IMG/VR virus record: IMGVR_UViG_3300021389_000053
Location: 1-41,025 of that record
Reading direction: 5' to 3' (one strand)
DNA: 41,025 bases
Origin: a virus
In this document: positions 13,135 through 33,199 of the stretch, piece after piece
Position numbering within the stretch: position 1 is the first letter of the stretch
How the letters are laid out: the number at the start of each line of letters is the position of its first letter
Notes under the pieces: generated by a model
Seen by the model: the letters and a program-made list of their open reading frames with translations, nothing else
Databases searched by the model: none
Told to the model about the DNA's origin: nothing
Program-made: the position numbers and the translations under genes

Positions 13135-16100
13135 ATGACTTTAAATCTTAATGTCACCCCCTATTTTGACGATTACGACATAAACAAGGGATATCTAAAA
13201 ATACTATTCAAGCCTGGAAATTCCATTCAGGCAAGAGAATTGACTCAAATGCAGAGTTTGTTACAACAACAGATTACTAATTTGTCGGATCATTTTTTCA
13301 AAGAAGGTGCGATGGTTATTCCTGGCCAAGCTGCGGTTGATTTATATGCTCAGTATGTAAAAGTTATGCTTCCCACTGCTTTACCATCTGCAAATGATTT
13401 TGTAGGAAAAGTGGTCCAAGGAAATAAAACTGGACTGAAAGCACTAGTCGTTAAACATGTAGATATTGTAGATGGAAATAGTGATGGAGATTTTACGGAT
13501 TATGAGGTAGACGGAGACGAACCAACTACATTATATTTGAAATATCTCGATGGAGCTCCAGATTCAACTACACAAGTTAATACAGGTTCTGGATTAGTTA
13601 ATATTGAAAATTCTGTGCCCGGCACCACATCGTTTACAGTTAATGGGGAGACTGTTACTATCGCCGCAGGCGCGACTGCTACATTTGTTGAGGGAGAAAC
13701 ACTAGTAACAACTGCAACAGATGGTTCTACTTTAGCTTGCGAAGTCATGTCAAATTCTGTTGTCTCTAGACCCATTGGTCAAGGTACGATTGCTTTTGTC
13801 GAAGAAGGTGTTTATTATATCAGTGGACAATTAGTAAAAATCCAATCACAAAGTATTGTTTTGAGCAAATATACCTCCGATCCATCTGCAAAAATTGGTC
13901 TGGATATTGCAGAAACGGTCATTACTTCTAATGATGACGATTCTTTGCTTGACACATCTTTGGGCAGCGTAAATTATAATGCGCCTGGGGCCGATAGATT
14001 ACAAATAACATTGACATTAGTAAAGAAACCTTTTGATGTAGTAGACACAACTGGATTTGTCGAATTGATCAGTATTAAAGATGGAAAGATTGCTACTCAG
14101 GCAGCAAGAGATGAATATGAAATTTTAATGAAAACTTTGGCCAGAAGAACCTATGACGAATCTGGTGATTACACAGTCAGACCTTTTAAATTGGATATCA
14201 GAGAATATTATAATGAAGATAACAATGAAGGCGTTTTTGATATGTCAGATTTTGTATTTGACACAGATATTGAGGCCAGATTTTGGGCTAAAGATAGAAT
14301 GCCAGAAGAATATGGAATGACTATAGATGGAGTTGGACAATCTCATCAGATAACTCAGCAAGATATTAGAAATTACCCCGATCAGGTATTGGACACGACT
14401 CAAACAAAATATTATCCGGGCCTCACGCATCAAAATTTAATCAATGCCGTCAGAAATAAAATTGCAATTGGTATTGAATCTGGCAAGGCGTATGTAAAAG
14501 GGTATGAAATAGAATCGCGGGCGTTGACAAAAGAAAGTAAATATCTTATATATGACAAAGCAAGAGAAATTTATAAGGAAAATAATGAATTTATTCCTGT
14601 GGATTTGGGCCCATATATTTTAGTTTCGGATGTTAAAGGTTTACCAAAAGTCAATAGTTCTGTTAATTTAGTTAATTGTCATATCGGTGCTGGTGCTGCG
14701 GAAAAATGGATTTCAGTTTCGGCTGATTCTGCAAACACTTCTCAAAATGCTGCTGGAGTAGTTGTAGATGGAGTCGCTGGTGAAATTCCAGTAAACATGT
14801 TCGAGAGTGGTACTCTGTCAAGCGGAGTTCTGGGCGCAAATACATATGGTATTGATATTGTTGGTACTGCAAAAGTTAAGGCATTCCATTATTATGATGA
14901 CTCTAGTAGCGGTGCTCGTGGAAATAACTATACAACTTCAGATTTTAGACCGCCCATCACCGCGCAAGAAACAGCAATATATAAAGTATATTTGTATGAT
15001 TTGGAATTTGAAATCAATCCTAGAACTGGTGGTGAATATGCCATATCAGATGCTAGATCATTGACTTCAATAGAAACTTATGGTGCTTCTAAAGTATATG
15101 ATTTCGGTTCAAATATATTGACAAAAATGATAACAATGCAAACTAATGGTACATTTGACACAAAAACCATGTTGTATGAAAAAGATAATGATGCCATTCG
15201 GGGAATAGTTTATCATTATAATCAATATACTGGACTCTTATTGGTAAAACCATTAAATTCTGGTAATGCGGGTGGTACGAATGGCCAAGTCGGCGATTCT
15301 AATATTTTGCCAAGGGATAGTTTCAGTCTTAATAGAATAATTTTAGAAGCTGGTGGTGTAAGTTCATCTGGAACATTTACAAATAGTGGTAATTCTACAG
15401 ATACTACTATCAGTGATACAGGAGTTTCCGCTAGACTTTTCAGTAAATCTGTTGTAACTGCATCCGAGGGTAGTAGTTTGGTATCCACAGGTAACAAATG
15501 GGTTCAGACCATACGACATATAGATGATATTAGTGGTACTGCTACAGTAGATACTCAATATTCAGTTATGAAACAATTTGTTGGCGTGACTAGTGGGGCT
15601 TCTGGTTCAGTAACTCTTACCTTAGCAGCCGCAGATGAATATTTTGAACAAACGACATCTTTATATAGTGTATGGCAACCAGCTAATGGAACAACTATCA
15701 CCGCCGGTGTAGTAGGAGTTCAGTCGGGTTTCAGCTTCTCGGCGGACTTAAAGGAGGTTACTTTTAACACTTCTATATCAAGTTCGACTAGTTTAAATGT
15801 TTCAGTTCCAGTTAGAAAAACTCAATCTAAAGAAAAAATCAAAACAGAAAATACTCAGATATATATGCCATTCACATTGACAACATTAACAGGTGCAAAT
15901 ATAACAGGTATAAACTGGAATTCCATTGTAGCAACCAATGATACAAACAACACCAATACCTATGATACTGATATTGCCTCTCAGAGAACTACCTCTTCTG
16001 GTCAGTTACTTAGTACATTAACAGGTTTGGGAACCAGCACTACATTGAGTTTACCTATAAGTGAGTATCAACTGCATCATTCGGATGTGACTGAATTGAA

Positions 16101-19100
16101 AAAACTGTACGATACTTGTAATGTGAATAATTATGCGTATAGGGTAAGTGTAGATTCTTCTGATAAGAAAAATATTCACCAAATGTCAGAGTCAGAATTT
16201 GAATTTGCTCTGAAAGCATACAATTTTTGGGAACAGACCAGTGTTAGTCCGTTCGATGTAAGTTTACAGAATAGTACCAATACCATGACTTATGAATTAG
16301 TTGAGGCCGGTTTGACAAAGGATGGTATAAAAAATCCATTTTCAAGTGAAATTTTGACTATGTTTGTTTCTGGTACAACTGCGATTCCAAATCAGACGGA
16401 TATTCCTGTTAAAATTAATGATGTTACCGATAGATATATTTTAGACTCTGGTAGTAAATCAAATGTTCTAGGACTTGGAAAGGTGAGTATTAGAGGTTCA
16501 GCCGAGGCTTGTAAAGGTCGTCCCATTTTGATATATTCATATTTGTCACATGGCGTTGGTGATTATTCTTCGGTAGATTCATATCTTAATTATGATGATA
16601 TTGATTATTTTGGTAATGAGAGATTATCCGATTCCTTTGACTTTAGACCTGCTTTGGAATGGTCACAACTAGATGGTTCAGGTGGATTAGTTGGTGGCGG
16701 TTGGCCAAATGTCAGGGGTATCGTAAGTAATTCTTCTGGTGACTATCCCAGAACAGGTAGTGCTATTAGTGCAGATCTTCGTGCATATCTAGGTAGAAAA
16801 GATAAACTTTATGTCACACCAAAGGGAAAATTTTTAATAAAATATGGTAGTTCTTCATTGAATCCTATGTTACCCGATGATCCGACAGATGCCATGGTCA
16901 TATACGAATTAGTGACAGAACCATATACAGTAGGTCCAGAAGCAATATCAGTTTCTATGATGGATAATAAAAGATATACTATGAGAGATATTGGAAGGTT
17001 GGAAAAAAGAATTTCCAATTTAGAATATTATACATCTCTCAGTCTTTTAGAAAAAGATACAATAGACATGAAAGTTACAGATGCTGACGGAAACGATAGA
17101 TTCAAAAATGGGTTCATTGTAGATCAGTTTCAAAATCATAATGTCGGCGCAACAGCCAACCCAGATTATAGAGTCGCTATTGATGCTAATCGGTCAGAAC
17201 TGAGACCTTTTCATACCTCAAAAAATGTCAATCTTAAAATCAACACAGTAGAGTCATCTGGGTATGCTCTTAAAGAACAGAAAGTTTACTTGCCATATAC
17301 TAGCGAAGAAATTATGGCACAGGAAAAATCTTCAAAAACAATCAATGTAAATCCTTTTGCTATTTTCTCATTTAGGGGCAGTGTAAATCTCTATCCTTCA
17401 ACTGACGATTGGAAAGAAACTAATCAGGCCCCAGATATTGTAACAGACAAAAGAGATGAATATGAGGTATTTAAACATTTACTTCCGGAAGATGGAGTTA
17501 TGGGTACAGAATGGGGCGAATGGGAAACAAACTGGACCGGTTTAGAGCAAGGCACGCCCGTGCCGATAGATACTCGTGTTATACGGGACCCCGCAAAGTC
17601 AGGCCCTTGGTGGATCCGTCAAAACTTGATGAGAACACCGCAAACAAGAGTGGGTACAAAAACTCGATTGGGACAACTGACCACCGTTGCGCCTTTAGAT
17701 AAAAGTGAAAATTATGGAACTAAAACTCTAAAAACTGAAGTGATTCCTTATATTCGTTCGAGAAATGTTTATTTCTCGGCTGAAAGAATGAAATCAAATA
17801 CAAAATTGTATCCGTATTTTGATGGAGTATCAGTTTCAGAGTTTTGTGAAAGTACTAGAAAATTCACATTTACGGATACCAATGAGGTTATTGCTCAGTG
17901 GTTTAAAGATAATAGAGATGTGATAGTGGATAATAGAGGAAATGTTGGTTTGGTGGGAGACACCAGCGAACATAAAGTGAATGTATACGATGTTGATTGG
18001 ATAAATGCAACTACTATTACACTACATGTGGGACCAGATAATGTATTTGCACAATTTGGTGGACGCGAGGGTTCGTATACTACTGGCGAACAAATGACTG
18101 TTAAATGGCCGGATCCAGATAGTCCAACTGGTCTTTCTGAAAAACGAGTCGGAACATTGCCTAGTGGGGATAACTTAGTAGCAGCAAATTCAGATCTTAT
18201 AACAGATAAATCAGGATTTATTTCTGGAATATTCTCACTTCCAAATACTGGAAATATGAGATTTAAAACCGGCGAAAGAATTTTTAGACTATCGGATCAA
18301 TTAAACAATGCATCTGATGCAGGCACAGAAGGTCAAACAACATATTCTGCAACTGGTATTATAGAAACTGTTGCTAATCAAATTGTCTTGACAAGAGTTC
18401 CAGAATTTACGACCACTGAGGTTGATTCTGGACCAATTCGCACCACCGAGCCGGCCGAGGCCCTTGATGATTGGAGTACAGTAGCAGGATGGTATGATCC
18501 ACTAGCACAGACAATTATGGTTGATATGGATGGCGGCATGTTTATCAGTGCAGTCGACCTATTCTTTTCCACTAAAGACGATGGCACAACCTCCGATGGA
18601 TTTGTACCTGTTACATGTCAAATTAGACACACTGTAAATGGATATCCTGGCCCTAAGATTTTGGGCGAAAAAGTCTTATATCCAAAAGATGTAAATATTT
18701 CTGAACTTGGCACAGAACCTACACAGTTTGTATTCCCTTCTCCAATTTATGTACAAGATCAAACGGAATATTGTATTGTTATCTTAGCAGAAACTCAGGG
18801 TTATAGATGTCATATTTCTAGGATGGGACAAGAAGCCGTTGATGGTAGTGGAATCATTTCTACTCAACCACATGCTGGCGTTTTCTTTAAATCACAGAAC
18901 GCATCTACTTGGACAGCAGATCAAATGGAAGATTTGAAGTTTAGAGTACATCGTGCCGTATTTGATACATCTGCTCGGGGAGAAGTGATATTAGAAAACA
19001 CAGAATATGATGATAACAATAATGATCTGTGGTCAAAAGAATTTGGTCCGCAAAGTATGAAAATAACTGAAAATTCATCAAAAATTACATTTTATGTCAA

Positions 19101-20163
19101 TGATACTTCGGGACTTGTTTCGACAGACCGATGGTCAGGTCAAGGATATAACTACGTTACTTTATCAGATTTTCATGGAACATATGATGTATTTCCATCA
19201 GAATCTTTCAACGGCGACCACCTAGTTACAGAAACAACTTATGATACATTCACTATTGATATGAGAAATAGTTTTTATGCTCAGGGATCTACTACATTGG
19301 CCGCAGCTTACTCAGCTGCAGAATTGCCGACCGTGACAAATACATACACTCCAAGAAGCAATACAAATTTTGCCCCGAGGTTTATGGGCAATTTTAAATA
19401 TGATCTAATGAAACCGACTATTCAAACAATAGAATTACCAAATACTAATATTTCTGCACAGTTCCGTGGATTATCTGGTACATCTCAAGATTCTAATAGA
19501 GTGCCGGGAATTAAAGATCCTAATTATCAGTATTTTGTACCCAATAAAAATATTGAGTTTTCTTCTCCGATGATGATGGCAACAAATACAAATGAAAGAC
19601 TTTTCAACACTTCTTCTACTGAGATTGATAAAAAATCATTGGCGATAAAATTAAATTTGACTACGGAGTTTGATAATATTTCTCCTGTTGTCGATACTCA
19701 AAGAATGAGCGCAATTCTTGTATCAAATAAAACGAATAGTCCTTCAAATACAACTGCTGGACAGAGAGGATATGTTAATACAGGATTCATTGCAGAAACA
19801 GAACCCACAGGTGGTTCTATTGCAACTAAATATATGACAAAAGAAGTTACTTTAAATCAGGCTTCTACATCTTTGAAAACTATTGCGTCCGTAATCAAAC
19901 AGGCGCCATGTGATATTGATTTTTACTACAGAATTAAAACTTCAGAAGAACAAGTTTTTTTAGATAGACCTTGGGTATTAATGGAAAGACCAGATGTGTA
20001 TAGTAATAATTCTGCGAATGAAAATGATTTTAAAGAGTTTGAATTTGATTTGCAAGATTTGCCAGAGTTTACTTCTGTATCAGTAAAAATTGTAATGACA
20101 ACTACAAACTCTTCTATTGTTCCAAGAGTAAAAGACCTAAGAATAATTGCATTGGCGAGTTAA
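13135..20163 (+). CDS. DUF4815-type giant virion structural protein
   Basis: This 2342-residue protein starts with the signature of a large structural protein family of marine T4-like phages (DUF4815): YFDDYDINKGYLKILFKPGN, SIQARELTQMQSLLQQQI and HFFKEGAMVIPGQAAV. Around residues 1785-1930 there is the family's conserved beta block DPLAQTIMVDMDGGMFISAV, then DLFFSTKD, CQIRHTVNGYPGPKI and TEYCIVILAE. It occupies the place where T4 has gp9/gp10, so it is likely a peripheral baseplate or fibre-socket protein; that role is inference from position. GAGAG precedes the ATG by about 8 bases. No signal peptide or membrane segment is visible. The family recognition is firm; the precise role in the particle is not. 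Confidence 0.8.
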   Translation: MTLNLNVTPYFDDYDINKGYLKILFKPGNSIQARELTQMQSLLQQQITNLSDHFFKEGAMVIPGQAAVDLYAQYVKVMLPTALPSANDFVGKVVQGNKTGLKALVVKHVDIVDGNSDGDFTDYEVDGDEPTTLYLKYLDGAPDSTTQVNTGSGLVNIENSVPGTTSFTVNGETVTIAAGATATFVEGETLVTTATDGSTLACEVMSNSVVSRPIGQGTIAFVEEGVYYISGQLVKIQSQSIVLSKYTSDPSAKIGLDIAETVITSNDDDSLLDTSLGSVNYNAPGADRLQITLTLVKKPFDVVDTTGFVELISIKDGKIATQAARDEYEILMKTLARRTYDESGDYTVRPFKLDIREYYNEDNNEGVFDMSDFVFDTDIEARFWAKDRMPEEYGMTIDGVGQSHQITQQDIRNYPDQVLDTTQTKYYPGLTHQNLINAVRNKIAIGIESGKAYVKGYEIESRALTKESKYLIYDKAREIYKENNEFIPVDLGPYILVSDVKGLPKVNSSVNLVNCHIGAGAAEKWISVSADSANTSQNAAGVVVDGVAGEIPVNMFESGTLSSGVLGANTYGIDIVGTAKVKAFHYYDDSSSGARGNNYTTSDFRPPITAQETAIYKVYLYDLEFEINPRTGGEYAISDARSLTSIETYGASKVYDFGSNILTKMITMQTNGTFDTKTMLYEKDNDAIRGIVYHYNQYTGLLLVKPLNSGNAGGTNGQVGDSNILPRDSFSLNRIILEAGGVSSSGTFTNSGNSTDTTISDTGVSARLFSKSVVTASEGSSLVSTGNKWVQTIRHIDDISGTATVDTQYSVMKQFVGVTSGASGSVTLTLAAADEYFEQTTSLYSVWQPANGTTITAGVVGVQSGFSFSADLKEVTFNTSISSSTSLNVSVPVRKTQSKEKIKTENTQIYMPFTLTTLTGANITGINWNSIVATNDTNNTNTYDTDIASQRTTSSGQLLSTLTGLGTSTTLSLPISEYQLHHSDVTELKKLYDTCNVNNYAYRVSVDSSDKKNIHQMSESEFEFALKAYNFWEQTSVSPFDVSLQNSTNTMTYELVEAGLTKDGIKNPFSSEILTMFVSGTTAIPNQTDIPVKINDVTDRYILDSGSKSNVLGLGKVSIRGSAEACKGRPILIYSYLSHGVGDYSSVDSYLNYDDIDYFGNERLSDSFDFRPALEWSQLDGSGGLVGGGWPNVRGIVSNSSGDYPRTGSAISADLRAYLGRKDKLYVTPKGKFLIKYGSSSLNPMLPDDPTDAMVIYELVTEPYTVGPEAISVSMMDNKRYTMRDIGRLEKRISNLEYYTSLSLLEKDTIDMKVTDADGNDRFKNGFIVDQFQNHNVGATANPDYRVAIDANRSELRPFHTSKNVNLKINTVESSGYALKEQKVYLPYTSEEIMAQEKSSKTINVNPFAIFSFRGSVNLYPSTDDWKETNQAPDIVTDKRDEYEVFKHLLPEDGVMGTEWGEWETNWTGLEQGTPVPIDTRVIRDPAKSGPWWIRQNLMRTPQTRVGTKTRLGQLTTVAPLDKSENYGTKTLKTEVIPYIRSRNVYFSAERMKSNTKLYPYFDGVSVSEFCESTRKFTFTDTNEVIAQWFKDNRDVIVDNRGNVGLVGDTSEHKVNVYDVDWINATTITLHVGPDNVFAQFGGREGSYTTGEQMTVKWPDPDSPTGLSEKRVGTLPSGDNLVAANSDLITDKSGFISGIFSLPNTGNMRFKTGERIFRLSDQLNNASDAGTEGQTTYSATGIIETVANQIVLTRVPEFTTTEVDSGPIRTTEPAEALDDWSTVAGWYDPLAQTIMVDMDGGMFISAVDLFFSTKDDGTTSDGFVPVTCQIRHTVNGYPGPKILGEKVLYPKDVNISELGTEPTQFVFPSPIYVQDQTEYCIVILAETQGYRCHISRMGQEAVDGSGIISTQPHAGVFFKSQNASTWTADQMEDLKFRVHRAVFDTSARGEVILENTEYDDNNNDLWSKEFGPQSMKITENSSKITFYVNDTSGLVSTDRWSGQGYNYVTLSDFHGTYDVFPSESFNGDHLVTETTYDTFTIDMRNSFYAQGSTTLAAAYSAAELPTVTNTYTPRSNTNFAPRFMGNFKYDLMKPTIQTIELPNTNISAQFRGLSGTSQDSNRVPGIKDPNYQYFVPNKNIEFSSPMMMATNTNERLFNTSSTEIDKKSLAIKLNLTTEFDNISPVVDTQRMSAILVSNKTNSPSNTTAGQRGYVNTGFIAETEPTGGSIATKYMTKEVTLNQASTSLKTIASVIKQAPCDIDFYYRIKTSEEQVFLDRPWVLMERPDVYSNNSANENDFKEFEFDLQDLPEFTSVSVKIVMTTTNSSIVPRVKDLRIIALAS

Positions 20164-21884: not shown

Positions 21885-24800
21885 ATGGCAATACCAAATT
21901 CTGGCCCAATAAAAATGTCTGACATCATCCAATATTTGCAAAAGTTGGGCGGACAAAAAAGAATTTCTCAATATTATAGAAATGGTGGAAATGTAACAGA
22001 CATCTATGATAATCGAAATATCCCAGAAAGCGGACCAATAAAATTTTCTGATTTTTATGGAAGTGGATTGCAATCTGAATATAATTGGCCAATTCCAGAA
22101 CTTTGCACAGATGATTTTATAAGTTTTGCAAAAGGTATAGAAAATTGGGATCAGGTAAACGATTCCAAAACTGAATATATTGGAAGAAATGATACCGAAG
22201 CTTCAATGGAAATACCAGTTTACAATAAAGAAGGTGCAACCATAACAATCCCTGCATTAAAATTTGAAATAGATACTGAGCGTGGAAATGATCTGAAGTA
22301 TGAAAGAATTTTAGAAAACACTTCTATTGAAGCTACAAATAAGGGATTGCCGACTGATACTTTTTCGCCAGGCTCATGGAATATGATTATTCCTAAAAAA
22401 TTCAAAAGAATTAGAATTGTGGCAGTTTCCGGTGGCGGGTCTGGTAGTGTTCAAAAAATATCTTTGACCGGTCTAGAGATGGAGAATAAGAGAACAAAAG
22501 GTACTGTAGAAAACGGATACGATGGTGGCAATTCTACTGTTTTACATGACAATTTCAGAGTATCCGTCAGGGGTGGACATGGTGGCAATCAGGACGCGGA
22601 GGATCATGACCGCAGTCGTTATGATCAAACAACGCTACATCCAACTGGCCTTCAACAATCCAGCTTAGCGGCCGCAGGCCAAAGCTTTATAATTGGTGGA
22701 ATTCCGACTTCATATGATAATAAATCAGCTGAAACACCTACAGAACATATAGCAATTGCCGATCATATGTTTGGTCTTGATGTGCCGGTTTTTGATGATG
22801 GTAGTAAATCTTTTGCGCGAAATAATTTTCCTATCAATATTCTATATGCTCCTCCGCTTCCACATGGCCGAAGACATCACAACATCTTTTCCCCATCGAA
22901 CCTTGGCCAAGGTGAAGATTCGTTGTTTGGCCCAGGCGGCCAGCCAGGATCTGAATATTCATCATCATCGACACCGCAAACTGGACCTGTTGAGGTACTA
23001 GATACAAGCTTTGGTGCTGGTGGTGCTGCGGGGCAACATGGTGGACGTGGTTCAGATGAAACTGGATATACCGTCACTCAAGCTGGTCAGAGTGGTATCA
23101 CTGGATATTTTGGTGATTTTGAGGTAAAGGGTGGTGATATTTTAAACATTCGTGTCGGCGCCGGAGGAAGTAAAAGTAAAAATACTTATAATGATTATGA
23201 TGATATTCTCGGCCGAGAGACTCAAAGAATCTCGGAATCTGGTTATGGTGGCGATGGAATGGTCCAGATAATCGGTGGTCATGGATTTGCTCATTCGTCG
23301 TTGAGTCATCCTGGCTGGGTATTGGAAGATGAAGATGGTAGTATTATTGCATCTTCATATGCAGCGAGTGAATCATCTGAAGGAGTTACATTGCTTCAAG
23401 GATCGACTTCTTCACAGAGAACCATTACGTTAATGGGTCCAAATAATGTATCAAATCCAAGAATATATCGGTTAAGATTTAGTGCTAGAATTGGAAAAAG
23501 TGGCGATGAGTCAGTTAAGACAAGATTTTGTCACATAGGAAAAAAATCAGTAAAAGTACAACCACTCAAAACGATAGTAATGGAAAATCCACCTAATCAG
23601 GAATTATATGATAATCCAGACCTATCCCCAGATGTAGAACAAGTATCCGGAACTTATCTGCCAAGAGGTACAGATGATAATGAAATAATAGATAATTGGT
23701 TTGTCCCACAATGTAATATCAGTCTTACAGTAGTGGCTAACACTAGTAGGTATGATAGTTCAGCAACATTTACAAAATCACCACAGGGTGCTGTTTCACA
23801 AGAACGTGGCGGAGGCCCAGATAGTTTTGTATTGAATAAAACCACTCCGGTTGTAGAATTTACGATGGCTAAACAAGAAAAATATGTATTAGAAAAATCA
23901 GGGTTATCTTCTACTGCTTCAACTGTATCTAATCAAAATAGAATTGCAACATATCTCAGAAGTCGTCAAGAGTTTCAATTAGACGAAAAGAATGAGAATG
24001 ACCAGAATTACTCTTCGGTAGATGGAATAAATACTTGGGAAACAGCTGATATGGCAGTTTTTCATTCTGGCGCGGGTGGATTCTTTTTAGGACTTGATGG
24101 AGCTATCAGTGAACCACCAATTAGTGCCTCACAGATTGAATATGATATGATTGGCGGTGGTAGAGGGGGAAATGGTCAGGGGTTTACGCCCGGCGGAGAT
24201 TCCGAGGATGGGTATATCCAAGGCTATTTTGGATCTCCTGGCGGCACAGGTGGCGAGACAATTTTATCAAAAAATGGTGTGGTGATTGCAACTACAGGTG
24301 TTTATACTAACAATACTCAAATGGCTCCTTCAAACTGGAACAGTACTATCTATGGTAATGGCGGCCGTAGTCAGTCATTTAACTACCGGTCGGCCGGCGG
24401 ATCACCACGCAGGATGCAACCTCTTGGTTGGACGCAATCGACTCCTAATGCCCCGAATGGTATAGTTAAAACAGGCACACTAGATGTGAAAGCTGGAGAT
24501 GTGTTAGATTTCGTTATTGGACAAGGTGGTGCCGGCGGGTTTGGGGCAAGTTGGCCAGCATCTCGAAGTGTTGGAAATAATGATGATACTGAGAATTATA
24601 CGGCAGTAGGTGCGCCGGGCGCGGGTGGACAATCTGGTGCTATCATACTTCAAGGGGTTACTTATACCGAGTCTGGTAGTCATACCGTAACAGATGAGTT
24701 ACAATTCAATCAGTCCGTTTTAGATGGACAAGTAAATCCACTTGTTTTTGGAACCACTGGACATCCGATCGATGGTGCCATAACTTGGCCTTATCCTTGG

Positions 24801-25712
24801 TGGCGAGATTGGACTATCGGCGGCGGAAGAATAAAAGAACTCTTTGGTGAGGATCCGATAAGACTTGGCAAAGATTCTATGAATACTTGGATGTTTAATC
24901 GGATAGGCCGTTATATCACAAAAGAGCAACACAGCGGCATCTACACAACAACTCCTGACCCTTACGACCCAGATGGAAACGCACCATATGTAGGTAATTT
25001 TCCTGAGTTGTACGAAAAGTACTACTGGTCGTATCAGACGGGTAGGGATGATGATGAGACTAATGTTCGTTCAAACTGGCGACTGAAAAGCAATTGGAAA
25101 GAGATTGCACAAAATTCTGATCGGTTAAATTCGCCCTCACAAGACTTGAAAACCTTTTTTAGTTGTGGATATGTTGGAGATAAGACTATAGGGCCTGGCA
25201 CAAATATTCCACATAACTATACTCCGCCGCCAGTAGTTGAAGATCCCCCATCGGTTCCAAAGAATGATCATATCTGGGATATTAATTTATGTTTCCTTGC
25301 CGGTACAATGGTTACAATGGAAGACGGATCTAAAAAGTCTATAGAAACAATAGATCTGGGCGAAAGTGTTAAAATTGGCGGAAGAATATTTGCTTGTGGT
25401 AAATTTTTAACTAATGATTTGCACGATTATCATGGTATCAAAGTTTCGGGATCGCATATGGTTTTAGAAAATGGTAATTGGATTCAAGTAAAAGATTCTC
25501 CCGATAGTACCTTTATTTCTGATGAAGTTGTGACTACATATAACTTTGGCACAGAAAATCGAAGACTCGAAATCGAAGGAATTACATTTACAGATTATTT
25601 CGAAATTGACGAAAAATTAAAACTAGAAAAATTAGGTAATAAGTATTTCGAAAATTGGACAGATGATATGATGGAAAGAAATAAAGAAGTGGTAGATATA
25701 ATAAATGAATAA
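21885..25712 (+). CDS. Glycine-rich tail adhesin with C-terminal Hint domain
   Basis: This 1275-residue protein starts with two copies of a short attachment motif (IPNSGPIKMSDI and IPESGPIKFSDFYG) found in marine phage tail fibre proteins. The body is rich in glycine clusters such as GGPGGQPGS, GAGGAAGQHGGRGS, GGGRGGNGQGFTPGG and GAPGAGGQSGAI. They resemble the glycine-rich motifs of T-even gp38-type adhesins, which pack as polyglycine sandwiches and carry receptor loops between them. Residues 1136-1275 form a Hint (hedgehog/intein) domain: Cys1136 opens CFLAGTMVTMEDGSKKSIET, and H1191 lies in the block-B-like KVSGSHMVLENG. The usual intein end (HN followed by Cys/Ser/Thr) and a C-terminal extein are absent, so splicing is not expected; N-S shift and cleavage or ester transfer before Cys1136 is possible. 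Its stop overlaps the next gene. Confidence 0.82.
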   Translation: MAIPNSGPIKMSDIIQYLQKLGGQKRISQYYRNGGNVTDIYDNRNIPESGPIKFSDFYGSGLQSEYNWPIPELCTDDFISFAKGIENWDQVNDSKTEYIGRNDTEASMEIPVYNKEGATITIPALKFEIDTERGNDLKYERILENTSIEATNKGLPTDTFSPGSWNMIIPKKFKRIRIVAVSGGGSGSVQKISLTGLEMENKRTKGTVENGYDGGNSTVLHDNFRVSVRGGHGGNQDAEDHDRSRYDQTTLHPTGLQQSSLAAAGQSFIIGGIPTSYDNKSAETPTEHIAIADHMFGLDVPVFDDGSKSFARNNFPINILYAPPLPHGRRHHNIFSPSNLGQGEDSLFGPGGQPGSEYSSSSTPQTGPVEVLDTSFGAGGAAGQHGGRGSDETGYTVTQAGQSGITGYFGDFEVKGGDILNIRVGAGGSKSKNTYNDYDDILGRETQRISESGYGGDGMVQIIGGHGFAHSSLSHPGWVLEDEDGSIIASSYAASESSEGVTLLQGSTSSQRTITLMGPNNVSNPRIYRLRFSARIGKSGDESVKTRFCHIGKKSVKVQPLKTIVMENPPNQELYDNPDLSPDVEQVSGTYLPRGTDDNEIIDNWFVPQCNISLTVVANTSRYDSSATFTKSPQGAVSQERGGGPDSFVLNKTTPVVEFTMAKQEKYVLEKSGLSSTASTVSNQNRIATYLRSRQEFQLDEKNENDQNYSSVDGINTWETADMAVFHSGAGGFFLGLDGAISEPPISASQIEYDMIGGGRGGNGQGFTPGGDSEDGYIQGYFGSPGGTGGETILSKNGVVIATTGVYTNNTQMAPSNWNSTIYGNGGRSQSFNYRSAGGSPRRMQPLGWTQSTPNAPNGIVKTGTLDVKAGDVLDFVIGQGGAGGFGASWPASRSVGNNDDTENYTAVGAPGAGGQSGAIILQGVTYTESGSHTVTDELQFNQSVLDGQVNPLVFGTTGHPIDGAITWPYPWWRDWTIGGGRIKELFGEDPIRLGKDSMNTWMFNRIGRYITKEQHSGIYTTTPDPYDPDGNAPYVGNFPELYEKYYWSYQTGRDDDETNVRSNWRLKSNWKEIAQNSDRLNSPSQDLKTFFSCGYVGDKTIGPGTNIPHNYTPPPVVEDPPSVPKNDHIWDINLCFLAGTMVTMEDGSKKSIETIDLGESVKIGGRIFACGKFLTNDLHDYHGIKVSGSHMVLENGNWIQVKDSPDSTFISDEVVTTYNFGTENRRLEIEGITFTDYFEIDEKLKLEKLGNKYFENWTDDMMERNKEVVDIINE

Positions 25713-26202
25713 AAATGATAATTTTAAAGTGAGAGACTATGCCCCAGATAAAGATTATGATACATTAACAAATTGGTTTTCAAAATTAGATGATGGGAAG
25801 GGTTGGATAGCGCCAGATAAAAATTGGTTAGAAAATGGGTTGATAATAGATGGATATTGTGCTGCATTTTTACACCTCGCAAAAACTGGAAAAGGAAAAA
25901 ATAATTTTGGATACCTTTGGCCGATAGTGTCAAATATAGAATCTAATGTTATGAAAAGAGACAGGGCTTTAGATATTTTATTAAAAAATATGACAAAATA
26001 TGCAGAAAATAAAAATTGCAATTTTCTCTATACTACCATATCTACCCCAGCTCTTATAAAAAGATTGAATACTCGACACAATATGTTGATAGCAGAAACT
26101 AATATGACATCTTTAGTTCTACCACTTGGCTCACAAGACAATATATCTTTAGAATGTATGGTTAATGATGAATATATAGAACATTTTCCTGAATCTAAAT
26201 AG
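25705..26202 (+). CDS. GNAT-like acetyltransferase-fold protein
   Basis: This 165-residue protein begins KVRDYAPDKDYDTLTNWFSK and continues through GYCAAFLHLAKTGK, a 'YLWPIVSN' strand, a helix RDRALDILLKNMTKYAENK and an NFLYTTIST strand. The order of strands and helices and the opening D-Y-x-x-L-x-x-W pattern match small GNAT-fold N-acetyltransferase genes known in marine T4-like phages. The classic acetyl-CoA loop (R/Q-x-x-G-x-G/A) is not clear; the nearest region is VMKRDRALD, so catalytic activity is uncertain. The ATG overlaps the end of the Hint adhesin by 8 bases, which suggests translational coupling and perhaps a job in modifying virion or host-surface components. The substrate is unknown. 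Confidence 0.55.
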   Translation: MNKNDNFKVRDYAPDKDYDTLTNWFSKLDDGKGWIAPDKNWLENGLIIDGYCAAFLHLAKTGKGKNNFGYLWPIVSNIESNVMKRDRALDILLKNMTKYAENKNCNFLYTTISTPALIKRLNTRHNMLIAETNMTSLVLPLGSQDNISLECMVNDEYIEHFPESK

Positions 26203-26252: not shown

Positions 26253-26262
26253 ATTGATGCAA

Positions 26263-28611
26263 ATGGCTCAACGGCAAATAACAAACATGTCTACATTCTC
26301 TAATTATGGAATGAGTAGAATTAGAACTGGATTTACAACTATAGAAGGAACTGCTTCAATAGATGGAAACGAAGTTGTTACCGGCGGTATGATGATGGCA
26401 TTAGCCATTGACATGCAGAATCAGTGGGGAATGTTTAATGGTTCGCCAGACGCTGGTAATGAATTAGTCGATAATCTTGGGGCCCCCATAACTAAACAAT
26501 TTTTTCAAGAAATAGGACTCACTAGTCCAACATCTACCGGAAATTATGCCGGTTCGGCAAACTATAGTCAATCAACACCATCATCGCCGTCTCAACATGT
26601 AATGTTATTCCAGACAACAACAGAAAGTCTTCCCAATAACGGCACAGTTTCTAGGGGATTGGATCAAAATTACAGAATAAGATTTGAATTGGATTTGAGG
26701 CCTCGTCTTTTTTATAATTTTTCGACATCTACCGGCGACAGAGAATTTGCAGATGAATTGTATCAACTAAATTTGAGAATGGATTCTTTGGGATATTATC
26801 ATTACGCCGGCGGCAATCAAATAAACGAACAACTATTTAAACCAAATTCATACTACCCCGATAGCGTATATAGGGCAGATACCTTTATTTTGCCTAATTC
26901 TGGATTTCCAAATACTTCTGGTTGGGAAGATCAAATTGGTATTCCAAATCCTATGTACGGATGGTTCAAAGTTAATGTAGGTTGTTCGAATCAACTATTA
27001 GCTTCTGGTGATATTTCAGAGCCTCAATCAGATTCAAATGGAATAATAACACTAGAAAATGGATCGACAGTCGATACATCTATTACAAGATTTCCAGGCG
27101 AGTGCGTAGACTTGACATTTGAAGATGTTACTGTGTTGTCCGATCCGTCTAATACAGGGCCTTATTATGTTGAAGGAACTATAGTAAGTGATGATCCAAA
27201 TCAACTATTTTACTATCCAGTGTTTTTAGATCAATATGCAGCAAATCAATATGATGGAGCAATCGCAAATACTGCTACTGCTATAAGTATAACAGGGGTG
27301 TCTAATACAAATCCTGTAGTAGTAACAACGAGCGCTCCACATGGATATACACAGGGTCAACCAATATCGTTTTCTAGTATTTCTCCAGCAATAAATCCGC
27401 TAAACGGTAACACTTACTACGCAAAACCAGTTTCGGGAAGTGCGAACGAATTTTCTGTATACATGAATTCAAATTGTACTATACCATTAAACGGAACTTC
27501 TTGGACTACTGCCCAACAATATGTTAGTGGTGGTAACTCTACTTCGGGAGTAGGTACATCTTCTGCAAAAATATTTTCTGAATTTCCATTATTGACAGTA
27601 TATGTTCCCACTACGACACTTGATCCTGCTAATTCTGCATTATGGGGAACTGCTACTGCACCTACTTCGGTATCTGGATTTAAAAAATATATTAACAATC
27701 GGTCTCTTAGATTCAGAAATAAGAAAAAGGGTTCTGGCTGGTTTAAAAGATTTCCAAAAACGGAACCATCATTGCAGGGTACATATCCATTTTCATATAG
27801 ACTGACAATGACAGAAAGAGGAATATTTCTATACATTCACGACGATGCTTCTTCGGACCAAGCAGACGATTATGCATGGATTGCAGTTCAAAGAACTGTA
27901 AATAATGAAACTGGAATACCAAGAGTTGATGAAGGTTCTAAGTTTCCAGTACATACCATGTATTCTTGTTCGAGAGATTCAATGTATTCTAGGGATGCGG
28001 GTGTTTATTTTTCTCAAGATGCGGCAAATTTACAGAACGCAGAAACGGTGGTCAACACAGTATATGATGAAAGAGGTAATACATACAACTTATCAAATTT
28101 AGACAACAGCAAAACATTTTATATTCTCAGTCCATACGATAGAGAAGATTATCTTGCAGATGAATATACCGCAAAAAATATTTGGAGATTTGTCGCAAGA
28201 GAATTTGATATTTTAAAGCCCACAGATGTTCATAAATTTGCCACTCGACATCAAGTTGACAGCAACGCAGTCATCAATCCACTTGAACAATTATCTATCA
28301 CGGATGAAAATAGATTTGTCATCACATTTCCCACTGGATTGACAACTCAAAGATTTATGTATCCAAAAGAAGAAATGGATTTAATTTGTTTTTCATCTGC
28401 CGAGGTGGTTGCAGAATCAAGTAATATTCCAATGACAACTTACAAGTATGATGGAACAAATATAGATAAACGCAGATATCAAGGTATGAGATCGACAGCT
28501 GCATTTGGTAATGGTATGAGAATTATGGCATTAGTGAATGGTCAAAATATCCATAATAGCGATGTAATATTAGATGTAAATGATGCGATAGGGATTGAAT
28601 ACACACCTTAA
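26263..28611 (+). CDS. Large virion-type protein of unknown function, paralogue 1 of 3
   Basis: I do not recognise a named family. The protein has 782 residues from the preferred start (784 from the ATG at 26257). It is the shortest and most divergent of three adjacent paralogues. It shares with the other two a middle block near residues 505-560 (GTYPFSYRLTMTERG, DDYAWIAVQR, FPVHTMYS). It also shares a late block from about 640 to the end: FVAREFDILKP, NAVINPLEQLSIT, FPTGLTTQRFMYP and GNGMRIMALVNG. The N-terminal part contains an ITGVSNTNPVVVTTSAPHGY stretch like those in phage fibre proteins. No signal peptide, membrane span or enzyme motif is visible. The perfect late promoter and place after fibre genes argue for a virion component, probably tail-associated. 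Two PGD-like features of other paralogues (DLCLHPY, the FREPGE block) are missing here. Confidence 0.75.
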   Translation: MAQRQITNMSTFSNYGMSRIRTGFTTIEGTASIDGNEVVTGGMMMALAIDMQNQWGMFNGSPDAGNELVDNLGAPITKQFFQEIGLTSPTSTGNYAGSANYSQSTPSSPSQHVMLFQTTTESLPNNGTVSRGLDQNYRIRFELDLRPRLFYNFSTSTGDREFADELYQLNLRMDSLGYYHYAGGNQINEQLFKPNSYYPDSVYRADTFILPNSGFPNTSGWEDQIGIPNPMYGWFKVNVGCSNQLLASGDISEPQSDSNGIITLENGSTVDTSITRFPGECVDLTFEDVTVLSDPSNTGPYYVEGTIVSDDPNQLFYYPVFLDQYAANQYDGAIANTATAISITGVSNTNPVVVTTSAPHGYTQGQPISFSSISPAINPLNGNTYYAKPVSGSANEFSVYMNSNCTIPLNGTSWTTAQQYVSGGNSTSGVGTSSAKIFSEFPLLTVYVPTTTLDPANSALWGTATAPTSVSGFKKYINNRSLRFRNKKKGSGWFKRFPKTEPSLQGTYPFSYRLTMTERGIFLYIHDDASSDQADDYAWIAVQRTVNNETGIPRVDEGSKFPVHTMYSCSRDSMYSRDAGVYFSQDAANLQNAETVVNTVYDERGNTYNLSNLDNSKTFYILSPYDREDYLADEYTAKNIWRFVAREFDILKPTDVHKFATRHQVDSNAVINPLEQLSITDENRFVITFPTGLTTQRFMYPKEEMDLICFSSAEVVAESSNIPMTTYKYDGTNIDKRRYQGMRSTAAFGNGMRIMALVNGQNIHNSDVILDVNDAIGIEYTP

Positions 28612-28678: not shown

Positions 28679-31600
28679 ATGTCTATTGCAAGCGGATTTA
28701 GCATTCAAAGAAATGACGTTATACAAGTGCCACATAGGCAACAATACGAAGTTCATAATGCCATAGCAGGAATTTCTGTTTATGTCTTGAGATCATTACC
28801 AGATTATAAAGACAAATCTTGGGATTGGGATATTCGCATGGGTGAAGTTAGAATTCATCTGGAAAGAGGATCGGAGGCATTAGGAGTAAATGTTAATAAC
28901 ACTACTTCAACTGGTGTCGGACCAAGTGGTGTTATTCCAACAGAAGATGAAGCCTTTGCAGAAAATTTATACACAGAAGGTTCCTTGATTGCCGGTCGTG
29001 GTTCGGTTGAATATGATTCTAAATATGGAGAATTTGGTGCTATTGTATTTGATACACAGTCAGCGCCCATGTCAGGTGAAAAAATAGAAATTTCGTATAT
29101 AGAAGATGTATCTAAGTTTAAAGGCGATGGCGGATTAATGTTTCAACTTGCACATGATCTCTGTCTACATCCATATAATAGCGCTGAAATTTTTAAATCT
29201 CATTTCGGAAACCAAAAAATAATTACTTTGGGACTAGACGGAACTACTGGAAATGAATTTCAAGAGGATATTCCTTTATCAACTGTAGCCGGAGGCAACA
29301 ATAATAACATTCTGGATGTAGCCAAGGGTGGTTCTGGTGTTGTTGATACAGTTAAAATATATAAAAATCCATTGTCAATAAGATATAATGACTCTTTTAC
29401 TGGTGAGGGTCTTGAAGCTTCACAAAGAACTGTAAAATATTTGTGGAAAGTTGTAAAAGAACATAGAGAAAGCAATCTAGCACTAGATATGAGTGGCAGT
29501 ACGGCCGGAATATCTTTTTCTGAAATAACTACAACTGACAGAACTACATATGTCACATTAATGAATGATTTTCCATTAGTGGAATCTGATCTAGGTGCGG
29601 GAGAATTTAGAGTTTCTATAAACAATCAATTATTATTAAGTGATGATTGGACCGTTACTTCAGATGATGTTAATAGAAAGGCTACTTTCAAACTGAAAAG
29701 AACCGAAGCTATGACATGGGTTGCTGACCTAGCGAATGTTAATGTAAATATTTCTTATATATGGAAAAAGTCTATAGATGTTCCTTTTGGTGCATTGGTA
29801 GGTAGAGGTGGTCTGGGACCAAATCAAGTTACTGCCGATTCGGGCGCTGGTAGCGCATCACACATTGCATTCCCACACGATGATAATATTATTGATGATA
29901 CCGAAGCGGCCCCAAATAAATATTGGGCATTTAGTAGAGCGTTTCGTGGTATTAGTGCCTCCGCGATGGATCCAGCAAATCCACAAAATGCATATTTCGG
30001 TTGGCATGCTCCAGTAGCAAATGGCGACCCGCACATTGTCACATCGCAGGCAGATGCGACCAATGCTTTTGTCGGATTGGCCAATGTTTCAGTTATTCCC
30101 GCCACAAGTGTTAGACATAAAAATACTGCAAAAATTAAGGATGGCGATTTATTTAGTTTGTCTATGATGGAAAATGAAGAATACGCAAATCCGTTTAAAT
30201 TGATTTTCCCAGCTCCACTCTCTTCTACCAATGAGATTGACATAAAAAATAAACTCAGGACAATAACCGATAAATTTTTGTTAGAGTCAGATAAAGGTGT
30301 CGATTTACTATCGGATAGCAATCTTAGTTTTACTAATAGTTATCATCCCGCAAGTAATAGAAAACCACAAAAATGGCGTTTGAGATTTCAATGGGATCCT
30401 TCAACACTGTCTGTAAAAGTTAATGTTGGGACAGAATATCAATTGAGAGATGATTGTAGCATTTCTGCTATGGATGTACGAGATGGAATAAAATCTCCAA
30501 TATTTAGAGAACCCGGCGAATTATGCGATGTTTATAAAACTCCAGCTGTTGGCCGTGGAGCTAACTTATCAATCTCTCGAGCAAAATCTCAATGGTTTAA
30601 AAAACGTCAGATAGAACAAAGTATGGCAAGTACATATCCAATGACATATAAAATTACATGTACTGATCATGGTATGGCTCTTTTTGTATTCGATCAATCT
30701 TCAGTAGACCAAGATGATGATTATGCTTGGTTTGTCATACAGAGACATGTTAATCAATCTACAGGAGAACCCGAATTCTCAGACAAATCGCCAGTTCATT
30801 GTGTTTATTCGCCTTCAAAGAGACCTGTTGATGTTTCATCTTTGACACCATATTTTGCAACAAAAGATACAGAAGATTTATCAAAACCAGATGCTATCTA
30901 TAGTTCTTTGGGAAATTTGTATAAGACCGAAGCACCGACAATTTATGTTAATAGAGATGCAACTTTTTTCGATGGAATCGTTAATGCTATTGATTTTAAC
31001 GGATATGGATATGCTTCAACTACTGCGCGTGGACAGGTAACTCCCACAACATTATCATCTTCTGATATAAAAACAGATTTATTCAGAGGAATAACTGGAA
31101 ATCAGGGTTCTGCTAGTACAAATCTTTGGTCGGAAAAAGTATGGAATTTCCGAATCGCAGTAGATGCCAATGGCAACTTACCGGAATATGTCGTAGGTCA
31201 TTATGTTAAAATGGAAATCAACACCGATGGTGATGCCGCTACTATAGAAGATTGGGGTGGTAGAATTAAATTCTGGGATCCGATCGGTGGGTTGTTGACA
31301 ATTGTTTCCACAAATGATTTACATCTAACTGGTGCCGGCGAAAAATATGACTCAGTGACAGTGCCGCCAGGCGCTGAGAATATTCTTGAGGCTGGGGGTA
31401 AAGAATTGGTAATGGGATTGTCTATGTCAGGTGATGTCACTGTTGATTTCACCCCACATGCAGGAACCACATCCCCTTACACATCAATAACAGATGTGAC
31501 TAGAGAAGCAAAAGGTATGTTGTCAACTATTCCTGTTGTAGAAAAATCTGGGCCAAAATCAGCAGTTACAGATTTAGCGATAACAGGTTTTAATTCATTA

Positions 31601-33199
31601 CCTAGACGCAGAGATACTTCTATTGCATTAGACGCTTCGCCATCGCCAGGATCTGTCACTCAAGTAGCAGGGCCGCCAGCATTCATCAGAGTACCAACTA
31701 GTGCTGGTGCAAACTTGCTGGCAAACACCGCGCCAGCTGCGAGTTGGTCGGTTGGCAGTTCGGCTTCAACGATGTCTCAAAATATTGTTTGGCCATCAAA
31801 TCTGTTAGAAAGAATGTCTACATTTAAAAATTCTTCTGCATCAGGGACCGGAATTGGAAGTGCCGCCGAAAATGTAAATATGAGTAGTTTCAAGAGTGGC
31901 GACTCTGCTCTATTAGATATTTTATATACTTCACAACCAGATAATGTAGAAAAAGTATTTGAATCTATGGTGGTATCCCTTGATGATATAGAAATTAAAA
32001 GAGATACAAAGGCGTATGTTCTTACATATGATGAATGGGTATTACGAGGCGACCCATCTACTGTTCCAAGATTTTTAGAATCTATGGATGCGGCCGGAGT
32101 TACAACTCTTGGTGCAGATTTTAAAATTCCTGCCACTGGCACCACAACTGGTGATTTGCCAAACTTTAATCAATTAATTCCTGGCATGGATCCGACAGCA
32201 ACAGGCGCTGGTGTAAACAAAATCACATTTAATACAAACAATGCTTCTACTGGTAGAAAGTTTTTTAATAATTGGCAGAATTGGTTTGAGAAGGGCGTAA
32301 TTCCTACCGGATGGGTTTCAGGCGATGATTATCCAGAATGGACTTTTGCAACTTCTCATTTGGTAAAATCTCAAGATATTGATAGTCTCAAAGATAAATT
32401 GCCCGGCGATGTGATATGGACTAATACTATTGTTCGTAATGAATATATGTATGATTTCTGGAATAAGTCTCTTTTCTTTAAAATTTCTCCAAGAGCAGGC
32501 ACAACATTTTCTATTTCTATGATAAATTACCAAACTGCAAATCCTTCGCAGGGTACTTATATTATTTCTAAACCAGAAGATAGAAATTTTCCAGAAACAA
32601 ATTTAAATGAAGTTAAATCAATAAACCGATTTGTTGTGAGAGAAAAAGATGTTTTGAAACCTTGGGATTATCATGTTTCTGCAACAATGCACGAAATAGA
32701 CTCTCATGCTATAATCAACCCACAAGAACAACTTTCAATTACTCAAGGAAGAAATTTTGTATTTTCTTTCCCAACACAATTAACATCTCAGAGATTCTAC
32801 TATCCAGAAATGGAATTGGATTTGATTTGTGTATCTTCTGCTGACTTTAGTACTCAAGCCGGTTATGTGGAAATAGACAAATATACTGATTCGGATGGTA
32901 AAAATACAGATGCTAGTACGGCAGCACAAGAAGCAATGAAAAGTGCGTTTACTGATTCGACTTCAAGTGGTTCATTAGGAAATAGATTTAGTGTTAGTGA
33001 AATAGCAGCTGGTGCATATGGTGGACATACCGGGCCCGATGATAAAGTTTACATATGGAAAAAACATAAAAGAAAATATGAAGGAATGCCATCTACCCTA
33101 CCTAATGGTAATGGTATGAGAATCTTTTTGCAAGTCACTGGTGGGGCAATCCGACACAGTGACGTCGAAGAAGGCACAGCACCGCCCATGACTAGATAA
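28679..33199 (+). CDS. Large virion-type protein of unknown function, paralogue 2 of 3
   Basis: This 1506-residue protein is not a family I can name. It starts SIASGFSIQRNDVIQVPHRQ, closely matching the start of paralogue 3 (GGFSIQRNEMISIPQQ). Other shared blocks are DLCLHPY (about residue 160), the DGIKSPIFREPGEL segment (about 600), TYPMTYKITCTDHG (about 650), DDDYAWFVIQRHVN (about 678) and PVHCVYSPSKRP. Near the end come RFVVREKDVLKPWDYHVSA, IDSHAIINPQEQLSIT, FPTQLTSQRFYYP and GNGMRIFLQVTGGAIRHSDV. A roughly 600-residue segment between the middle and late blocks is unlike paralogue 3. No catalytic motif or membrane segment is seen. Own late promoter and excellent SD predict high late expression, which fits a structural or adhesin role. 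Confidence 0.78.
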   Translation: MSIASGFSIQRNDVIQVPHRQQYEVHNAIAGISVYVLRSLPDYKDKSWDWDIRMGEVRIHLERGSEALGVNVNNTTSTGVGPSGVIPTEDEAFAENLYTEGSLIAGRGSVEYDSKYGEFGAIVFDTQSAPMSGEKIEISYIEDVSKFKGDGGLMFQLAHDLCLHPYNSAEIFKSHFGNQKIITLGLDGTTGNEFQEDIPLSTVAGGNNNNILDVAKGGSGVVDTVKIYKNPLSIRYNDSFTGEGLEASQRTVKYLWKVVKEHRESNLALDMSGSTAGISFSEITTTDRTTYVTLMNDFPLVESDLGAGEFRVSINNQLLLSDDWTVTSDDVNRKATFKLKRTEAMTWVADLANVNVNISYIWKKSIDVPFGALVGRGGLGPNQVTADSGAGSASHIAFPHDDNIIDDTEAAPNKYWAFSRAFRGISASAMDPANPQNAYFGWHAPVANGDPHIVTSQADATNAFVGLANVSVIPATSVRHKNTAKIKDGDLFSLSMMENEEYANPFKLIFPAPLSSTNEIDIKNKLRTITDKFLLESDKGVDLLSDSNLSFTNSYHPASNRKPQKWRLRFQWDPSTLSVKVNVGTEYQLRDDCSISAMDVRDGIKSPIFREPGELCDVYKTPAVGRGANLSISRAKSQWFKKRQIEQSMASTYPMTYKITCTDHGMALFVFDQSSVDQDDDYAWFVIQRHVNQSTGEPEFSDKSPVHCVYSPSKRPVDVSSLTPYFATKDTEDLSKPDAIYSSLGNLYKTEAPTIYVNRDATFFDGIVNAIDFNGYGYASTTARGQVTPTTLSSSDIKTDLFRGITGNQGSASTNLWSEKVWNFRIAVDANGNLPEYVVGHYVKMEINTDGDAATIEDWGGRIKFWDPIGGLLTIVSTNDLHLTGAGEKYDSVTVPPGAENILEAGGKELVMGLSMSGDVTVDFTPHAGTTSPYTSITDVTREAKGMLSTIPVVEKSGPKSAVTDLAITGFNSLPRRRDTSIALDASPSPGSVTQVAGPPAFIRVPTSAGANLLANTAPAASWSVGSSASTMSQNIVWPSNLLERMSTFKNSSASGTGIGSAAENVNMSSFKSGDSALLDILYTSQPDNVEKVFESMVVSLDDIEIKRDTKAYVLTYDEWVLRGDPSTVPRFLESMDAAGVTTLGADFKIPATGTTTGDLPNFNQLIPGMDPTATGAGVNKITFNTNNASTGRKFFNNWQNWFEKGVIPTGWVSGDDYPEWTFATSHLVKSQDIDSLKDKLPGDVIWTNTIVRNEYMYDFWNKSLFFKISPRAGTTFSISMINYQTANPSQGTYIISKPEDRNFPETNLNEVKSINRFVVREKDVLKPWDYHVSATMHEIDSHAIINPQEQLSITQGRNFVFSFPTQLTSQRFYYPEMELDLICVSSADFSTQAGYVEIDKYTDSDGKNTDASTAAQEAMKSAFTDSTSSGSLGNRFSVSEIAAGAYGGHTGPDDKVYIWKKHKRKYEGMPSTLPNGNGMRIFLQVTGGAIRHSDVEEGTAPPMTR

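Follow-up and report, generated by a model that had tools for sequence, protein, structure and literature searches.

Hint domains usually act alone. The Hog region of hedgehog proteins joins a Hint domain to a sterol recognition region, an intein ends in a C-terminal His-Asn followed by a nucleophilic +1 extein residue, and a type A BIL domain ends in a terminal Asn (the title of structure 6y75 names C1A-N143A). In hedgehog, a Gly precedes C258, the domain carries a TXXH and an SCYA motif, and the sterol region has been proposed to be a helix-loop-helix (PMC9163320). The Hint-like Vint domain is eukaryotic and follows a VWA domain (PMC2362128).

The phage Hint family described here is represented in a viral DNA stretch of 41,025 nucleotides (IMG/VR record IMGVR_UViG_3300021389_000053, hereafter the window), and it resembles the hedgehog Hog region in several respects. 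The domain lies at the C-terminus of varied N-terminal partners, a Gly precedes the first Cys (Cys1) in most members, Cys1 is followed by Phe, the motif B His is present, there is no terminal Asn, and predicted helices follow the Hint core. It differs from Hog in having TDY(F) instead of SCY(A), a core that is about 40 residues shorter, a separate partner gene, and a location on virion proteins, with no sterol known; no sequence match of the family to hedgehog was detectable. BIL domains (2lwy, 6y75) share with it the Hint fold, motif A, varied fusions, and the lack of a nucleophile behind the domain, whereas in the phage family TDY replaces the terminal Asn of type A BIL, the tail is helical, and a partner gene is dedicated to the domain. 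Where inteins have His-Asn and the +1 residue, the phage family has TDY, then about 35 residues and a stop. Vint (8r2c) is likewise a C-terminal Hint-like domain and aligns up to residue 129 (Z 10.3), and Pfam searches gave no VWA match.

Two further comparisons are with phage proteins. Phage Hints that end in HN (here referred to as HN-type; L197-L248) occur in the same virus types, match the family profile in hhalign (97.9% probability, E 4e-13, with the motif B His aligned), and sometimes stand in tandem with the family domain in one chain (L072, L090, and L238). Unlike the family, they end in HN, usually have more protein behind them, and are never paired with the partner gene when alone (0/28). 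The other group consists of Bacteroidetes-phage proteins of phrog_17252, the family to which the partner belongs (hhalign 99.5%, E 3e-23). These also lie beside virion structural genes, but have no Hint upstream in the records examined. The Hint fold and processing by a C-terminal Hint are known already. No hedgehog-like phage Hint that has TDY where others show HN or SCY and that comes with an obligate partner gene was found in the profile libraries or in the literature searched (open-licence papers).

The Hint domain of the window protein

In the translation of the window ORF (Table 1), CFLAGTMV begins at Cys1136 and GSHMV at residue 1189, which places the His at 1191, and the stop comes 140 residues past Cys1136 without an HN motif. 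As a single sequence, the protein matches Pfam Hom_end_hint with E 4e-4 and Hint with E 0.18, both under the cut-off and over motif A only. The call of a terminal Hint domain in an earlier note, made from the DNA letters, was therefore a good one, although not obvious from databases, and it is borne out by the family profile (hhalign) and by an AlphaFold2 model. Residues 1-64 match phrog_30374, a PHROG family of unknown function; the gp38-type adhesin with polyglycine sandwiches, which the glycine clusters had brought to mind in the note, has no support in Pfam or PHROG profiles, and these gave no match in the N-terminal part beyond these residues.

The AlphaFold2 model of the domain, built from 73 sequences, has a pLDDT of 95.1 and a pTM of 0.87. 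Alignment depth matters here, as 11 sequences gave a pLDDT of only 40. The model has the beta fold of the Hint superfamily, with Cys1 at the domain start. In VIA-align, its residues 1-105 matched BIL domains (such as 2lwy and 6y75) with Z 11.8-12.4, inteins with Z of about 10-12 (best 12.0), and hedgehog with Z 10.5-10.8, so that the Hint fold was recovered against all three classes (Z 10-12); in Foldseek, too, the core matches Hint folds. The domain had earlier been described as a 140-residue Hint with Cys1136, His1191, and no terminal Asn. The residues stand, but the size does not: the core comprises about 105 residues and is followed by two predicted helices (residues 1241-1274; model residues 106-115 and 118-139). 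The Asp of FTDYFE (model residue 102) appears to fall at the position of the terminal Asn of many inteins and of the Cys in the SCY of hedgehog, to judge from where the aligned ranges end and from the lengths of known inteins.

Table 1. Features of the Hint locus and of the DUF4815 gene in the window.
Feature	Position	Strand	Basis and remarks
DUF4815 tail protein of 2342 aa, unsplit in the window	13135..20163	+	Pfam; split by Hint and partner in relatives
Stretch matching the split site and the L244 in-frame Hint insertion, residues 1764-1789	18424..18501	+	Alignment to relatives
Gly-rich virion-type (tail) protein ending in Hint domain, 1275 aa	21885..25712	+	ORF, translation
Predicted scissile bond Leu1135-Cys1136 (Gly-Cys in most Hint relatives)	25287..25292	+	Sequence, family alignment
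Hint core, aa 1136-1240 (model residues 1-105)	25290..25604	+	AlphaFold2 model, structure alignments, hhalign
His1191, motif B His (SxxH), invariant in family	25455..25457	+	Sequence, family alignment, hhalign
Thr1236-Asp1237-Tyr1238 (FTDYFE), putatively at the place of HN in inteins and SCY in hedgehog	25590..25598	+	Position inferred from aligned-range ends
Two-helix C-terminal tail, aa 1241-1275	25605..25709	+	AlphaFold2 model; less conserved than core
Partner of the phrog_17252 family, 165 aa, with a weak likeness to GNAT	25705..26202	+	Profile; overlaps Hint stop by 8 bases

Distribution and conservation of the family

A single-sequence search of IMG/VR with the window Hint found 14 relatives, and a profile search at least 236. 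Neither the window Hint nor the whole protein matched any of 50,697 GenBank phages, and the best match of another member among GenBank phages had 27% identity (E 0.06). The domain was present in one GTDB genome, on a viral-looking MAG contig. In these searches the family is virus-only, and its many carriers are uncultured and widespread bacterial viruses, probably marine. A LigA match in two members was taken as chance. On a contig classed as viral (L255:3517-4065), an HN-type Hint is directly followed by a Hog-type domain that has SCYA and matches PDB hedgehog with E 1.2e-14.

Cys1 and the motif B His are invariant in all 123 distinct sequences, positions 1-2 are always Cys-Phe, and Cys1 is the sole conserved Cys of the domain. 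In motif B (Thr-x-x-His), the Thr position is occupied by Ser or Ala. FTDYF, including its D and Y, is invariant in the 73 aligned members (73/73) at the place expected for HN, and the domain ends no more than 16 residues from the stop in 126/126. Compared with L002, the nearest relative, the window domain has a dN/dS of about 0.05 (dN 0.025, dS 0.494); the median over 380 pairs is 0.10. Judged from these sequences, Cys1 and His are under strong purifying selection.

Of 92 distinct upstream stretches, 86 (93%) have Gly directly before Cys1 (position -1). The linkers upstream of Cys1 are themselves Gly-rich (Gly 52-62% at positions -2 to -5), and in three fusion-partner groups Gly stands at -1 in 29/30 vs. 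at -2 in 1/30. Selection here acts on a position that is not part of the folded domain, and of the sequence evidence this speaks most strongly for use of the bond before Cys1. Leu stands at -1 in the window and in its two closest relatives, and because Leu rather than Gly precedes its Cys, cleavage is less certain in the window than in the family at large. The hedgehog-like layout that the earlier note saw in the window protein thus stands for the family in the Gly before Cys1, the lack of a terminal Asn and of an extein, TDY for SCY, and the predicted two-helix tail, while the window itself departs from it at -1.

Upstream proteins and the split DUF4815 tail protein

The N-terminal parts fused to the domain belong to at least seven unrelated groups of virion-type proteins, including Gly-rich, glycine-zipper, DUF4815 tail, disordered-looking, and window-type proteins, among others. 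As it ends so many unrelated proteins, the domain appears to be a portable processing module not tied to adhesins. The idea that it serves an adhesin tip, ester-linking it to a small molecule or a host-surface group, is not sustained: the same module ends DUF4815, glycine-zipper, and other proteins, and no acceptor molecule was identified.

In loci L018-L021, L023-L027, L089, L092, and L099, the N-part of DUF4815 is fused to the Hint and followed by the partner gene and then by an ORF for the C-part. The break lies in the same linker in these split loci, at residues 1764-1789 of the window protein. In L244, two HN-type Hints are present in frame at this linker, with no partner gene in the record. 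The occurrence of different Hint types at one DUF4815 site suggests that the virus benefits when the chain is broken or processed at this point. A split-intein reading was rejected, since the C-part is without a C-terminal intein piece, has its own Met start, and differs at its N-terminus between L092 and the rest. The L092 C-part is without the N-terminal extension of the others, and no conserved (acceptor) N-terminus was found across the DUF4815 C-parts, which argues against a re-joining of the halves. Behind the last HN of the in-frame Hints in L244 (L244:1-5712) is a Lys, not a nucleophile. L089 (L089:229-5438) has an interruption of the DUF4815 frame at about 3429-3444, probably from a sequencing error, the near-identical L092 being intact.

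The partner gene

A profile search found the partner family in every Hint locus that extends far enough downstream (97/97), and loci found by the partner family alone had the Hint in 80 of 81, the single exception being cut off; the loci behind these counts are related, not independent. The partner gene follows at the Hint stop in some loci; in others two genes intervene and it lies 1.2 kb on. Twelve large contigs each contain exactly one Hint and one partner, close together. The partner is present in 18/20 loci that have this Hint and the HN-type in tandem vs. 0/28 with the HN-type only (Fisher 2.6e-11, a significance overstated by the relatedness of the loci). Of the two tandem loci without a partner, L227 lies near a contig end, while L238, whose Hint is divergent, is a genuine exception. 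The earlier note had missed both this downstream gene, the main feature of the locus, and the DUF4815 split. L238 and L239 have three tandem Hints in one protein (starting at 3001, 3445, and 3871 in L238), the last of FTDY type, and no partner gene. In one virus group (Gly-rich), Hint and partner are separated by two genes, one for a short-chain dehydrogenase and one that is aspartyl/asparaginyl hydroxylase-like (L096:984-2217).

The phrog_17252 profile matches 33 of 37 partner members (best E 4.5e-24); with E 0.0012, the window partner is a distant member of this downstream-gene family. GNAT-like proteins are acyltransferases. Membership of the partner in GNAT was unconfirmed: its best match to Pfam Acetyltransf_1 (E 0.013) is below the cut-off, the acetyl-CoA loop (R/Q-x-x-G-x-G/A) is absent, and hhalign against cellular GNATs gave nothing significant. 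The partner has a conserved Cys, which is also present in two of three Hint-less phrog_17252 relatives; such relatives adjoin structural genes in Bacteroidetes phages.

Between the window and L002, the partner is 32% and the two-helix tail 31% identical, vs. 94% for the Hint core and 92% for the next gene. The partner gene of the window was thus exchanged, with its place kept filled. Hint core and partner showed no co-evolution when unrelated fusion types were compared (rho about 0). Similarity of the two-helix tail follows that of the partner to a small degree (partial rho 0.2-0.3); the trend is missing where 1.2 kb separate the two, so that physical linkage can account for it.

Proposed mechanism and alternatives

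We consider it somewhat probable that the Hint and its partner form a portable, hedgehog-like self-processing system, in which a thioester forms at Cys1 and the upstream protein is released or transferred with the partner's help. With neither a terminal Asn nor an extein, the Hint cannot splice. Cys1 would attack the preceding peptide bond (after Gly, or Leu in the window) to give a thioester, whose formation the motif B His may aid. The upstream virion protein would then be freed by hydrolysis or passed to a nucleophile, and the partner may act on this step as an acyl acceptor, a transferase, or an assembly factor, possibly docking via the two-helix tail. This reading draws on the Hint fold of the model, the invariant Cys1 and His, the Gly at -1, the partner gene specific to this Hint type, and the DUF4815 split at one site. 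Weighing against it are the Leu at -1 in the window, Ser or Ala for the motif B Thr, the weak GNAT likeness of the partner, its Hint-less relatives, and the lack of correlation between Hint and partner similarity across unrelated fusion types. It is doubtful whether the pair is a two-component conjugation system, in which the partner enzyme would move the virion protein from a Gly-Cys thioester to a specific acceptor, whether another virion protein, some small molecule, or a group on the host. If true, phages would have an equivalent of hedgehog processing in which a second gene supplies the acceptor chemistry.

Hydrolysis before Cys1 may also simply free the C-terminus of the virion protein, with no transfer, the partner only chaperoning assembly or, as a tail-docking inhibitor, setting the time of the cut. 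Such self-removal would fit the flexible Gly-rich linkers, the lack of a conserved acceptor, and the partner relatives next to structural genes in Hint-less phages, as well as the DUF4815 halves, which are separate genes and, to judge from the L092 C-part, are probably not re-joined. However, a mere hydrolysis would require no Gly at -1, nor would every genome have to carry a dedicated partner, and we regard self-removal as possible but on the unlikely side. A role of the partner as a protein ligase, which receives the acyl group of the Hint thioester and links the virion protein through its new C-terminus to an amine, e.g., of a neighbouring virion protein, seems rather unlikely: an obligate pairing specific to this Hint type, the conserved Cys of the partner, and the halves of one tail protein on either side of the pair speak for it, but the GNAT assignment is weak, the Cys recurs in Hint-less relatives, and the DUF4815 C-parts share no acceptor N-terminus.

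The Hint might instead be a non-catalytic structural cap or a docking domain for the partner, with Cys1 and His kept for folding only. The joint divergence of partner and tail in the window would agree with this; that Cys1, His, and Gly -1 are all under selection, the Gly outside the folded domain, makes it improbable. A degenerate intein, i.e., a dead and drifting remnant whose C-terminal half-reaction was lost, would account for the missing HN and extein, but is disfavoured and indeed most improbable in view of a dN/dS of about 0.05-0.1, active-site residues invariant across many virus lineages, and the obligate partner gene.

Significance and genome context

If the favoured reading of a self-processing Hint assisted by its partner is true, it would be a further way for virion proteins to mature, in which the two genes move as a unit between unrelated virion proteins and can break a tail protein in two, and the 105-residue core would be a small thioester-forming domain, possibly useful in itself. 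The association with the Hint is also a first functional lead for phrog_17252, a phage family with no assigned function. In the window, the ORF lies within a T4-like tail module, with baseplate hub and wedge, DUF4815, and sheath-like proteins around it. Three consecutive proteins of 785, 1506, and 1595 aa (26254-28611, 28679-33199, and 33250-38037) each match the tail sheath family phrog_12249 towards the C-terminus.
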